From an uncultured Paracoccaceae bacterium (GTDB taxonomy: Bacteria > Pseudomonadota > Alphaproteobacteria > Rhodobacterales > Rhodobacteraceae): a stretch of 64,000 bases of DNA. Positions 37,293 to 41,163 of the stretch are shown in pieces. The notes beneath the pieces are model-generated. The model did no database searches. It was not told the DNA's origin and saw only the letters and a program-made list of their open reading frames with translations. The number at the start of each line of letters is the position of its first letter. The stretch's first letter is position 1. The DNA lies in assembly GCA_947500825.1 (NCBI GenBank), contig CANMTR010000001.1, positions 310,001 to 374,000 on the forward strand, written 5' to 3'. The translations under genes were made by a program, and so were the position numbers.

Positions 37293-37898
37293 TCAGCGCT
37301 TGCGATCGCGGCGCGACGACATCGGCTGGAACGCCACGCCCACATGGGCCTCGCAATAGGGCTTGCCGGACTGCACGGGCAGCCCGCAGAACCAGAAATG
37401 CTCGCTGGCCGGGTCGCCGATGGGCCACTTGCAGGTGCGCTCGGTCAACTCCATCAGCGACAGCTTCTTCGACTTCTTCTCCACCTCGCGCACGGTTTCC
37501 AGCGCCTCGGCGCTGATCTCGTTGGCTGAGGGCTGCGGCGGCAGCGGCTGGCCGGCCGGCACGATCTGCCGCGCGGGGGAGGGGGGGACCTCCTCCTCGT
37601 CCGTCTCGTCTTCGGCCGGTTCCGCCTCGGCCGCGGCCTCGCTCCGACTCGCGGGCTCCGGGGCGGGCTCCCTGGAATGCGGGGGCTCGGCCGCGGGGGC
37701 TGGCTCGGCCGGGGCGTCCGGCACGGGTTCGGCATCGACGGGCGTTCCGCCCACGCGGTTCGACAGCCCCAGCCGATGGACCTTGCCGATCACGGCATTG
37801 CGGGTCACGCCGCCCAGCTCTTTCGCGATGGCGCTGGCCGATTGCCCCTCGTTCCACATCTTCGTCAGCTTCTCGACGCGTTCGTCGGTCCAGGACAT
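37293..37898 (-). CDS. gcrA: GcrA cell-cycle regulator
   Basis: Alphaproteobacterial transcription factor of 201 residues that acts with sigma-70 at promoters carrying CcrM-methylated GANTC. The N-terminal helix-turn-helix (MSWTDERVEKLTKMW...RNAVIGKVHRLGLS, 1-50) is the GcrA signature. A long acidic/proline/alanine linker (~55-125) leads to a C-terminal domain with Cys and His (CKWPIGD...FCGLP...YCEAH) typical of the family. The start at 37898 has AGGA upstream. A GATTC (GANTC) site lies immediately upstream of the start codon. Confidence 0.93.
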   Translation of the reverse strand: MSWTDERVEKLTKMWNEGQSASAIAKELGGVTRNAVIGKVHRLGLSNRVGGTPVDAEPVPDAPAEPAPAAEPPHSREPAPEPASRSEAAAEAEPAEDETDEEEVPPSPARQIVPAGQPLPPQPSANEISAEALETVREVEKKSKKLSLMELTERTCKWPIGDPASEHFWFCGLPVQSGKPYCEAHVGVAFQPMSSRRDRKR

Positions 37899-38006
37899 CG
37901 GATTCCTCGCTTTCGGGATGGGCGTCTGCGGCCGGAGCCGCTTGGTATATTGAATGACCATCCTATTCTAGTCACCCGTTGCCGTGACACAAGGTTGGGA
38001 CGCCGG

Positions 38007-38816
38007 ATGACCGAGACCACTTCGCACGAGATGGGCGTGCGCCGCTTCGGACGCTGGAACTGGATGGGGCTCTATACCCTGGCAGAGCGCGAATGCCGCC
38101 GCTTCATGTCGATCTGGGCGCAGACGGTCATGGGTCCCCTGATCAACGCGGGCCTGTTCCTCGCCGTCTTCGCCATCGCCATCGGACCCACGCGCGGCGA
38201 CGTGATGGGTGTGCGCTACGTCGAGTTCATCGCCCCCGGCCTGATGATGATGACGGTGATCCAGAACAGCTTCGCCAACACCTCGTCTTCGCTACTGGCG
38301 GCGAAGGTTCAGGGCAACATCGTCGACACCCTGATGCCGCCGCTCAGCCCGGCCGAGATGCTCTTGGGCTATCTCGCAGGCGGTGTCGCGCGGGGCGGCC
38401 TGGTGGCCGTGGTCATCGGGGCGGTGATGATCCTCCTGATCGGCACCGGCCTCGCGCATCCGCTCGTGGCGCTCCTCTTCATCGTGCTCGGGGCGGCGAT
38501 GATGGGCGCACTCGGCATCCTGGCGGGGATCTACGCCTCCAAGTTCGACCAGATGTCGGCGATCACCAATTTCGTCATCACGCCCCTGTCGTTCCTGTCG
38601 GGGACCTTCTACTCGATCGAGGCGCTGCCCTCGGCGCTCACGGCCGCGTCGCACCTCAATCCCTTCTTCTACCTCATCGACGGGGCCCGCTATGGCATCT
38701 TGGGCGTGTCGGACGCCTCCCCGCTCCTGGGCTTCGTCGTCTGCCTGGTCACTACGCTCGTGCTGTCGGGGCTCGCCCTGCGCTGGTTCCAGCGGGGGTA
38801 CCGTCTCAAGGCCTGA
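38007..38816 (+). CDS. ABC-2 type transporter permease
   Basis: Membrane protein of 269 residues with six predicted helices, the ABC2_membrane domain of drug/polysaccharide exporters (NodJ/YadH-like). Helix 5-6 region with FLSGTFYSIEALP is typical of this group. The ATG at 38007 has only a weak purine run upstream. No ATP-binding partner is encoded on either side, so the ATPase must be elsewhere. YadH-like permeases pair with YadG ATPases. Substrate unknown. Confidence 0.85.
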   Translation: MTETTSHEMGVRRFGRWNWMGLYTLAERECRRFMSIWAQTVMGPLINAGLFLAVFAIAIGPTRGDVMGVRYVEFIAPGLMMMTVIQNSFANTSSSLLAAKVQGNIVDTLMPPLSPAEMLLGYLAGGVARGGLVAVVIGAVMILLIGTGLAHPLVALLFIVLGAAMMGALGILAGIYASKFDQMSAITNFVITPLSFLSGTFYSIEALPSALTAASHLNPFFYLIDGARYGILGVSDASPLLGFVVCLVTTLVLSGLALRWFQRGYRLKA

Positions 38817-38859
38817 CAGCTCTTGCCCGTATGTCGCGCGCCGTCTAAGGATCGATGCC

Positions 38860-38895
38860 ATGACGATGCGACGACATACGCGCCGACGCCGCTGA
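38860..38895 (+). CDS. Putative arginine-rich leader peptide of argD-argF
   Basis: An 11-residue ORF, MTMRRHTRRRR, with six arginine codons (CGA, CGA, CGC, CGA, CGC, CGC), preceded by AAGGA 8 bases upstream. It stops 10 bases before an intrinsic terminator-like hairpin and 102 bases before argD. Six arginines of eleven next to arginine-biosynthesis genes is the pattern of an attenuator leader. Translation is not shown; chance Arg codons are more likely in high-GC DNA, which lowers confidence. Confidence 0.6.
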   Translation: MTMRRHTRRRR

Positions 38896-38926
38896 CGCCC
38901 ACCGCCGGGCGCCAGCGCCCGATTTT
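38896..38926 (+). terminator. Attenuator: competing antiterminator and intrinsic terminator
   Basis: The terminator stem is 38906-38911 with 38916-38921 (CGGGCG/CGCCCG, loop CCAG) followed by ATTTT. An alternative stem pairs CGCCC at 38896-38900 with GGGCG at 38907-38911, using the 5' arm of the terminator. A ribosome at the leader stop would cover 38896-38900 and allow termination; one stalled at the first Arg codons would leave it free and favour antitermination. Pairings are read directly; regulation is inferred. Confidence 0.55.
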
Positions 38927-38997
38927 CGCGTATCGTCGACGGCCCGGTGGCCTTCGCCACCCTCCGGGCCGCGCCCCTCCCCCGAAGGACCACCGCC

Positions 38998-40173
38998 ATG
39001 ATCCCCGCGATCCTGCCCACCTACAATCGCGCACCCCTCGCCTTCGAACGGGGAGAAGGTGCATGGCTCTGGACGGAGGACGGAACGCGATACCTCGACA
39101 TGGGCGCGGGGATCGCCGTCAACGCGCTCGGCCATGCGCATCCGGCCCTCGTCGAGGCCCTGGCCGAGCAGGCGGGCAAGCTGTGGCACGTCTCCAACCT
39201 CTACGATATTCCGCACCAGCGGCGCCTAGCAGGCCTCCTCGTGGATCACACCTTCGCGGACACGTGCTTCTTCACCAATTCCGGCACCGAGGCGCTGGAA
39301 CTGTCGGTCAAGATGGCACGCAAGCACTTCTCCGCCGCGGGGCAAGACAGGCATCGTATCGTGACCGTCGAGGGGGCCTTCCACGGCCGTTCCATGGCCG
39401 CGATCTCGGCCGTCGGATCCGAGAAGATGACGGACGGGTTCGGCCCGCTCCTGCCGGGCTTCACTCAAGTCCGCTGGGCCGACCACGACGCGCTCGAGGC
39501 GACCATGGGCGACGATGTGGCCGCGATCCTAGTGGAGCCGATCCAGGGGGAGGGCGGCATCCGCACGCTTCCCGATGCCTGCCTCAGGGGCTTGCGCGAT
39601 CTGGCCGACCGCCACGGGGCCTTGCTGATCCTCGACGAGGTGCAGTCCGGCATCGGCCGGACAGGGCGCCTTTTCGCCCACGAATGGGCCGGTATCACCC
39701 CCGACATCATGATGGTCGCCAAGGGGATCGGCGGCGGTTTTCCCCTCGGCGCTCTCCTGGCCACGGAACATGCCGCCGGCGCCATGACCGCGGGAACCCA
39801 CGGATCGACCTATGGCGGCAACCCGCTGGCCTGTGCCGTGGGTGCACGGGTGATGGAGGTGATCACCGCCGACGGCTTCCTCGACGGGGTGAACGCCATC
39901 TCCGGCCGGTTTCGGCAGGGGCTCGAAGGGCTCGCTGCGTCCCATCCGAAAATCTTCGGAGAGGTGCGCGGCCAGGGCCTGATGCTGGGTCTCAAGGCAC
40001 GGGTGCCCAATACCGAGGTGGTGGCGCAATGCTATGCCCAGCACCTGCTGACAGTACCGGCGGCAGACAACGTGATCCGTCTGCTCCCGCCCCTCGTCAT
40101 CGGCGAGGAAGAGGTCGCCGAGGCGCTTTCCCGCCTCGATGCGGCCGCTGCCGCTCTCACGCGGGCGGCGTGA
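38998..40173 (+). CDS. argD: Acetylornithine aminotransferase
   Basis: Class III PLP aminotransferase of 391 residues that makes N-acetylornithine in arginine synthesis (it may also serve as succinyldiaminopimelate aminotransferase). PLP Lys242 is in [10 protein letters not shown], cofactor Asp213 in ILDEVQSG, and NSGTEAL (~94-100) binds phosphate. The start at 38998 has GAAGGA upstream; a possible earlier ATG at 38947 lies inside the leader hairpin region. The next gene is argF, 84 bases on. Confidence 0.93.
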
Positions 40174-40257: not shown

Positions 40258-41163
40258 ATGACCCATTTCCTGGATATCCACAAAACGGACCCGGCCGACC
40301 TGCGGCGGATTATCGATACGGCGCGGAAAATGAAGGACAATCGAGACGGGCGGCCGAAAGGGGCGGCGGATGACGAGCGGCCGCTCGAGGGGGCGATGGT
40401 GGCGCTCATCTTCGAGAAACCGTCGACGCGGACACGGGTGTCGTTCGACGTGGGCGTACGTCAGATGGGCGGGCAGACCATGGTGTTGTCGGGGGCCGAC
40501 ATGCAGCTCGGCCATGGCGAGACCATCGCCGACACGGCCCGCGTCCTGTCGCGTTACGTGGACCTCATCATGATCCGCACCTTCGAGGAGGCGACCCTTC
40601 TCGAGATGGCCGATCACGCCGAGGTGCCGGTCATAAACGGGCTGACGAACCGCACCCATCCGTGCCAGATCATGGCCGACGTGATGACCTACGAGGAGCA
40701 TCGCGGCCCCATCAAGGGGCGCAAGGTGGTCTGGTCGGGGGACGGCAACAACGTCTTCGCCTCCTTCGCCCACGCGGCGCAACAGTTTGATTTCGAAATG
40801 GTCTTTACGGGGCCCGAGCCACTGGACCCCGAGCCTGCCCTGCGCGGGCTGATCACCGTCGAGCGCGATCCGGCGAAGGCGGTGGCGGACGCCGACCTCG
40901 TCGTGACCGATACCTGGGTGTCGATGCACGATCCCCAGAGCGCCAAGGAGCGGCGGCACAACCAGTTGCGGGGGTATCAGGTGAACGCGGAGCTGATGGC
41001 GCGGGCCAGGCCGGACGCCCTGTTCATGCATTGCCTGCCGGCGCACCGGGAAGACGAGGTCACCTCGGAGGTGATGGACGGGCCGCACTCGGTGATCTGG
41101 GACGAGGCGGAGAACCGGCTCCATGCCCAGAAGGCGATCATGCGGCACTGCCTGGGGCTCTGA
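40258..41163 (+). CDS. argF: Ornithine carbamoyltransferase
   Basis: Cytoplasmic enzyme of 301 residues forming citrulline from ornithine and carbamoyl phosphate. Carbamoyl-phosphate motif STRTR (~57), HPCQ (~136) and ornithine-binding MHCLPAHR (~258) are intact; the C-terminal segment ends as in anabolic OTCases. Placed after argD, it shares any leader-based control if no internal promoter exists. Confidence 0.95.

Follow-up and report, generated by a model that had tools for sequence, protein, structure and literature searches.

A candidate arginine-sensing leader-peptide gene upstream of argD-argF in the Rhodobacteraceae

Introduction

The attenuators of the trp, his, leu, thr, ilv and phe operons of Proteobacteria pair a run of cognate codons in a short leader ORF with mutually exclusive hairpins. 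The leader described here, which lies upstream of argD in the Rhodobacteraceae, differs from them in that such mutually exclusive hairpins were not found at the family level.

Several described leaders invite closer comparison, drawn here from excerpts of the cited reports. Within the Rhodobacterales, uORFC-8-2, the cysS leader, usually carries tandem Cys codons at positions 14 and 15, and its authors infer ribosome-mediated attenuation (PMC8632094). Like the argD leader, it is a short ORF with cognate tandem codons placed before a gene of that amino acid; unlike the argD leader, it pertains to cysteine and cysS, and its consensus ends in a U run that fits an intrinsic terminator (PMC8632094). 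Also alphaproteobacterial is trpL/rnTrpL of Sinorhizobium meliloti, a leaderless ORF (14 amino acids) that, as is proposed for the argD leader, begins at the first transcript base ahead of a biosynthetic gene, and that gives rise to a small RNA by attenuation (PMC7298713, PMC10117765). It concerns tryptophan and is a terminator-based attenuator, whereas the argD leader is without a conserved antiterminator and is followed by a second promoter in most relatives (PMC7298713, PMC10117765). Finally, orf34 of Salmonella speF shares with the argD leader the use of consecutive Arg codons (codons 12 and 13 of orf34) in a bacterial leader ORF that senses arginine, but controls ornithine decarboxylase rather than arginine synthesis; orf34 begins at +32 with a Shine-Dalgarno (SD) sequence and encodes 34 residues, and ribosome pausing on it alters mRNA folding and RNase G decay (PMC6386406). 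The original prediction for the present locus had named no described bacterial example for arginine genes, a statement to be qualified in view of speF orf34 (PMC6386406).

Excerpts of a regulon study list ArgR among the regulators that many gammaproteobacterial groups conserve and that other classes lack (PMC5343134). No match to the ArgR family PF01316 was found in the genome to which our locus belongs, while nine of 14 control genomes gave one, and within the open PubMed Central literature we found no account of how bacteria with such a genome adjust arginine synthesis. Nor did a search of the same literature, whose scope leaves most subscription papers outside, turn up any report of a Rhodobacteraceae argD gene with an arginine leader; excerpts of PMC3616915 and PMC2928234 hold nothing on an argD leader, and argD does not occur in the main text of PMC8632094. 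If the reading proposed below is correct, arginine biosynthesis joins the pathways under bacterial leader-peptide control, and the sensor is widespread: of the 145 other Rhodobacteraceae genera examined, 125 have the leader.

The leader ORF and its surroundings

The locus lies in a stretch of 64,000 nucleotides from an uncultured Paracoccaceae bacterium, the whole of which is referred to as the window. Direct reading of the bases places the leader ORF, ATGACGATGCGACGACATACGCGCCGACGCCGCTGA, at 38860-38895 (+); it encodes MTMRRHTRRRR and a stop, with six Arg codons among 11 and an Arg-codon run at its 3' end. Every base given in the original prediction for an 11-residue ORF with six Arg codons ahead of argD-argF was confirmed, as were the ten bases that separate the leader stop from the following hairpin and the presence of CGCCC at 38896-38900 and GGGCG at 38907-38911. 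Downstream lies a class III gene of the acetylornithine aminotransferase type (38998-40173, +; PF00202, Aminotran_3, E 1.1e-112), which we take to be argD from its argF neighbour and from common knowledge of the family; its ATG is at 38998, with AAGGA ahead of it at 38985-38989. It is followed by argF, of the ornithine carbamoyltransferase type (40258-41163, +; PF02729 and PF00185). Upstream of the leader, on the same strand, the window holds an ABC-2 permease gene.

A gcrA cell-cycle regulator gene is also found near argD and pointing away from it, both in the window (37293-37961, -) and in Cereibacter (509-1126, -, of locus L228). An excerpt of PMC3616915 likewise places gcrA close to argD, and directed away from it, in S. 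meliloti.

Distribution of the leader

Genomes searched comprised 14 of the window's genus and 218 of its family, 211 of the latter with an argD match. The 159 upstream regions examined represent the 14 of the window's genus and 145 of the 209 argD-matching family genomes from other genera; those left out were mainly lower-ranked, more distant argD genes, together with two at contig ends, and the family-wide share of leaders may therefore be lower than the share found here. Scored by an in-frame CGACG close to the end of a short ORF, a leader of 9-21 codons is present in 136 of the 159 upstreams. These comprise 11 of the 14 upstreams from species of the window's genus, and 125 of the 145 that represent other genera of the Rhodobacteraceae. 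Comparing argD upstreams from many Rhodobacteraceae, a check proposed along with the original prediction, thus found the Arg-rich ORF conserved, and the claim of an Arg-codon leader peptide of argD-argF extends across the examined family members. As in known attenuators, the biosynthetic operon has directly ahead of it a short ORF in which codons for the amino acid made by that operon form a run; an argF-like match follows argD within 1.5 kb in 47 of 47 loci tested. The ABC-2 permease gene of the window recurs upstream in only 18 of these 47 loci, which span at most 1.5 kb upstream, and the leader therefore travels with argD.

High GC content makes CGN codons common, so that an Arg-rich ORF could be expected by chance from GC-rich DNA, and the reverse strand does hold a comparable Arg window in 6/159 upstreams (three with four Arg codons and three with three of four). 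On the forward strand, four consecutive Arg codons among the last eight of a short ORF located 50-230 nt before argD were found in 88 of the 159 upstreams and in none of 795 dinucleotide shuffles; three of four were found in 33 further upstreams, giving at least three of four in 121/159, against 11/795 shuffles. Together with the promoter logo and covarying helix described below, these counts refute chance at the family level and leave it next to no probability.

Twenty-three of the 159 upstreams are without a leader by the CGACG rule, indicating that the leader is dispensable; scored among them is L088, which has an Arg run (MSTAAISLRRRIRA) but no in-frame CGACG. In a subgroup (L068, L099, L132, L144 and L157) shortened leaders end in RRA or RRDI; their run is down to two Arg codons, which gives the impression that it is shrinking. 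Elsewhere in the Alphaproteobacteria, 28 argD loci from 27 other families (the best 28 of 94 matching genomes outside the family) showed no recognisable leader; by eye and by ORF scan, none of these has a four-Arg run, and three of four Arg codons occur in some ORF of L172, L174 and L182.

Exact matches to CGACGCCGACGCTRA were found at 65 places, spread over 60 of the 218 family genomes. Thirty-six of these places precede argD (32 leaders in the examined set and four more), 17 others that were read by eye show no such leader and look internal to other genes, and none of the 53 of 65 places thus placed or read is a leader-like site away from argD. A search for further Arg-run leaders in the window's own genome returned eight sites with one mismatch to CGACGCCGACGCTGA. 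On plasmid pORIO5 of Cereibacter azotoformans, where the gene table (from the incomplete tables of PLSDB) is blank at the place of the leader, a short leader, MTSRTCTPAARR, was seen by eye at argD.

Arginine codons and the tRNA that reads them

Codon counts, like the segment map and the hairpin, switch and Arg-run-hairpin tests described below, omit L012, whose leader and flanks are the same as those of L011. In 80 of the 88 four-Arg runs the first Arg stands at codon 10, 11 or 12. The runs mostly alternate CGA and CGC, with CGA as first codon in 83/88 and CGC as fourth in 81/88; their 352 codons comprise 164 CGA, 170 CGC, 17 CGT, one AGG and no CGG. Across all 619 Arg codons of the leaders, CGA makes up 41% and CGG 2.7%, compared with 4.5% and 27%, respectively, of the Arg codons of argD in 35 loci.

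All 44 tRNA matches of the window's genome were read; they include one tRNA-Arg each with anticodon ACG, CCG, CCT and TCT, and none with anticodon TCG. An ACG anticodon, through inosine, reads CGU, CGC and CGA. The CGA and CGC codons of the run are thus read by the single tRNA-Arg(ACG) of this genome.

The C-terminal position of the Arg run, at the stop or a few codons before it, would also suit an arrest in which the nascent RRRR itself, rather than its codons, halts the ribosome. We consider such peptide arrest very unlikely: the strong synonymous bias, with CGA raised and CGG absent from the four-Arg runs, points to codons or RNA, and residues outside the run are by eye weakly conserved. 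It is likely that the leader senses charged tRNA-Arg.

Putative promoters of the leader and of argD

The putative leader promoter P1 of the window, TTGCCC-N17-TAAGGA, lies at 38823-38851 (+). In a logo of the 136 leaders, numbered from the A of the leader ATG, a -35 element is seen at about -36 to -31, T/A at -12, A (60%) at -11 and C (84%) at -1, and both -12 and -11 are A/T in 103/136 leaders. Such spacing is canonical for transcription that starts at the A of this ATG. Moreover, an SD-like motif precedes 10/136 leaders, as compared with 152/159 argD genes. These sequence statistics from relatives support transcription from P1 starting at the leader ATG, in agreement with the suggestion, made from the window, that TTGCCC-N17-TAAGGA could start the mRNA there. 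In the window itself the putative -10, TAAGGA, lies 2 nt upstream of where the family has it and includes an AAGGA at eight bases from the leader ATG, so that this particular leader could be leaderless or SD-led. A generic promoter scan found none at 38300-39300.

A second promoter, P2, is suggested close to argD. TTGAC occurs 35-95 nt before argD in 144/159 upstreams, 141 of them at 52-71 nt, and TTGA[CT] at 40-95 nt in 125 of 136 upstreams with a leader and in 20 of 23 without a leader gene; by eye, many of the 28 other-family loci likewise have a TTGAC promoter close to argD. Since it is kept where there is no leader and is seen in other families, P2 is probably the old argD promoter, and its place downstream of the leader in 125/136 means that the bulk of argD mRNA does not have to come from readthrough under leader control. 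The window is among the 11 leader-bearing upstreams without TTGA[CT] at 40-95 nt, one of which, L028, has it at 99 nt. As the motif is absent from its place in these 11, argD may depend more on P1 there. The position of P2 in the window (38936-38971, +), taken from the family position of TTGAC and from a palindrome, reads TCGAC rather than TTGAC at -35; it appears decayed, although the degenerate promoter may still work.

The palindrome of P2, GGCCCGGTGGCCTTCGCCACCCTCCGGGCC at 38941-38970 in the window and by eye near GTGCC-N3-GGCAC, covaries across the -10 region (z = 6.4, 5000 permutations). It could be the operator of some regulator.

A helix between the transcript start and the post-stop region

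Covariation was assessed without alignment: how well segments of one locus complement each other was compared with the complementarity obtained when partners were swapped between loci. The set used for 5000 permutations held one genome per genus, 123 of the 136; the genomes dropped were ten from the window's own genus and three whose spacers are short. Complementarity between the 5' end of the leader and the region beyond its stop (helix A) gave z = 11.6, with 0/5000 permutations as high, while three control pairings gave z between -1.0 and 0.2. Consistent with this result, a map of eleven segments returned p < 0.01 for three pairings: that of the post-stop region with the initial 15 nt of the ORF, that of two adjacent post-stop segments corresponding to the hairpin, and that within the P2 palindrome. 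In the window, the two arms are element A (TGACGATGCG, 38861-38870, +) and its complement, element A' (CGTATCGTCG, 38929-38938, +), which pair with a score of 22.6. Among 59 strong cases, 20 have A' ahead of the hairpin, 16 have it behind and 12 overlapping, and 11 have no recognised hairpin; because the place of A' varies in this way, helix A is probably outside the terminator choice. Helix A would close the leader start codon after the first ribosome. Neither helix A nor P2 figures in the original prediction.

The terminator-like hairpin

Hairpin T of the window, CGGGCG-CCAG-CGCCCG (38906-38921), is followed by ATTTT (38922-38926) and has a predicted energy of -10.3 kcal/mol (38906-38926, +, in all). 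In the family, hairpins between the leader stop and P2 are enriched over shuffles and covary (z = 5.1, 5000 permutations, 123 genera). With respect to the 6-bp G/C terminator with ATTTT that had been read from the window, the bases, enrichment and covariation are in its favour, while a generic terminator scan, whose rule demands five T in eight where the tail has four, found no site in 38300-39300. A hairpin was recognised in 100/135 leaders, its tail mostly C/T-rich and without a U run; in most relatives it may be a putative terminator, the C/T-rich tail counting against its strength as one.

Among upstreams in which P2 is unrecognised, the hairpins of L102 and L013 are predicted to form whatever the ribosome does, and in folding of L072 the hairpin is already on with the first Arg-run codon in the A site. 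Both L072 and L102 keep the leader along with strong hairpins, that of L102 having a predicted energy of -22.8 kcal/mol and the tail TTTCCTGT; in L072 the prediction turns sharply from off to on when the ribosome moves from codon 12 to codon 13.

The window can fold as a classical switch, which the family does not conserve

The original prediction had ribosome position select between terminator and antiterminator. The window does fold in this manner: an alternative, antiterminator-like hairpin, CGCTGACGCCC-ACCGCC-GGGCGCCAGCG (38890-38917, +), is predicted at -18.0 kcal/mol, and when a ribosome is made to mask up to 13 nt beyond its P-site codon, the probability of hairpin T is 0.00 with codons 3-7 in the A site, 0.78-0.90 with codon 8 and 0.84-0.99 with codons 9-12 (the ranges reflect two stem definitions). 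Given this change at codon 8, a stall at Arg4-5 would spare argD mRNA, whereas stalling at the Arg run that comes later would have no such effect. Shuffled competitors push hairpin T to 0.01 or less in 14% of cases (native 0.0000), so that the switch of the window may be fortuitous. It needs, moreover, a stall at codon 7 or earlier, and in relatives 80/88 of the four-Arg runs begin at codons 10-12.

Were classical terminator/antiterminator attenuation, just as first proposed, to operate throughout the family, the clean fold of the window and the 19 of 99 leaders that switch between an early stall and the stop would be its instances. Against it, antiterminator complementarity lies below permutation (z = -3.0, 4995 of 5000 permutations at or above native, 123 genera), native and swapped partners do not differ (p = 0.35), and shuffled competitors are stronger than native ones, leaving the hairpin at 0.67 as compared with 0.71. 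In most relatives a stall at the Arg run leaves the hairpin undisturbed, its probability being 0.71 when the ribosome has reached the first Arg-run codon and 0.80 when it is at the stop (n = 100). The permutation, swapped-partner and shuffled-competitor tests led us to reject a classical antiterminator as a family trait, and family-wide attenuation of this kind is accordingly judged unlikely. A classical attenuator reading is possible in the window but is not the conserved property.

A hairpin formed by the Arg run with the codons that follow it, noticed by eye in one subgroup, found no overall support (native 13.07 versus shuffled 12.83, p = 0.1, n = 88).

A proposed mechanism

From sequence comparison, we regard it as fairly probable that the locus is a cis-acting arginine-sensing leader-peptide gene of argD-argF. 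Sequence statistics in relatives suggest that P1 would make a short transcript beginning with the leader AUG; a ribosome would load on its bare 5' end, translate about 9-11 codons and reach the Arg run, where, by analogy with established leader-peptide biology, a scarcity of charged tRNA-Arg would make it stall. Judging from footprint size, a ribosome stalled at the run would just uncover about the first dozen nucleotides, and these could pair with the segment beyond the stop codon, a pairing backed by covariation. Ribosome position and helix A would then presumably set the share of P1 transcript that passes the hairpin into argDF, which is the weakest step of the scheme. In the window the readout can be classical, with a stall at Arg4-5 leading to the 10-bp alternative hairpin and a ribosome at codon 8 or later to the terminator. 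In most relatives, where no antiterminator is detectable, the hairpin may terminate transcription robustly and another route may read the signal, and P1 with its leader would add arginine-responsive transcription to the basal supply from P2.

The missing antiterminator and the covarying 5'-end helix call for a readout that is not the textbook one. We put forward only tentatively a leaderless, one-shot Arg-codon sensor, in which the stall would uncover the 5' segment, and this segment would pair behind the stop and close the start codon; the result would be a small autonomous arginine-sensing RNA that tunes the argD promoter, or targets in trans.

The P1 unit might also be an autonomous leaderless small mRNA or sRNA with a constitutive terminator, sensing arginine and acting in trans or on P2 with no attenuation at all. 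Such an RNA would agree with a hairpin kept free of upstream competitors (z = -3.0), with the retention of P2 downstream of the leader in 125/136, and with a 5' end paired post-stop, a pairing that would leave the completed RNA with a closed start codon; excerpts on S. meliloti moreover present rnTrpL/peTrpL as an attenuator RNA that is leaderless and also functions in trans (PMC7298713, PMC10117765). We nevertheless hold it to be rather unlikely, because the unit adjoins argD in every case placed, no leader-like site occurs elsewhere among the 53 of 65 exact-pattern sites placed or read, and the leader stays in the 11 upstreams where P2 is unrecognised.

Hairpins before argD outside the family

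A known RNA family was considered and rejected: in the window (38600-39200) Rfam gave two matches, both far under the gathering cut-off, and in 12 loci it gave none. No match at cut-off was found in L176, L177, L186 and L195 either. In these four and in other argD loci of the series L170-L197, a TTGAC-N17-GATACT-like promoter was seen by eye, followed at a short distance by a hairpin with a T run and then by argD, possibly a wider argD 5'UTR terminator that has no leader ORF.
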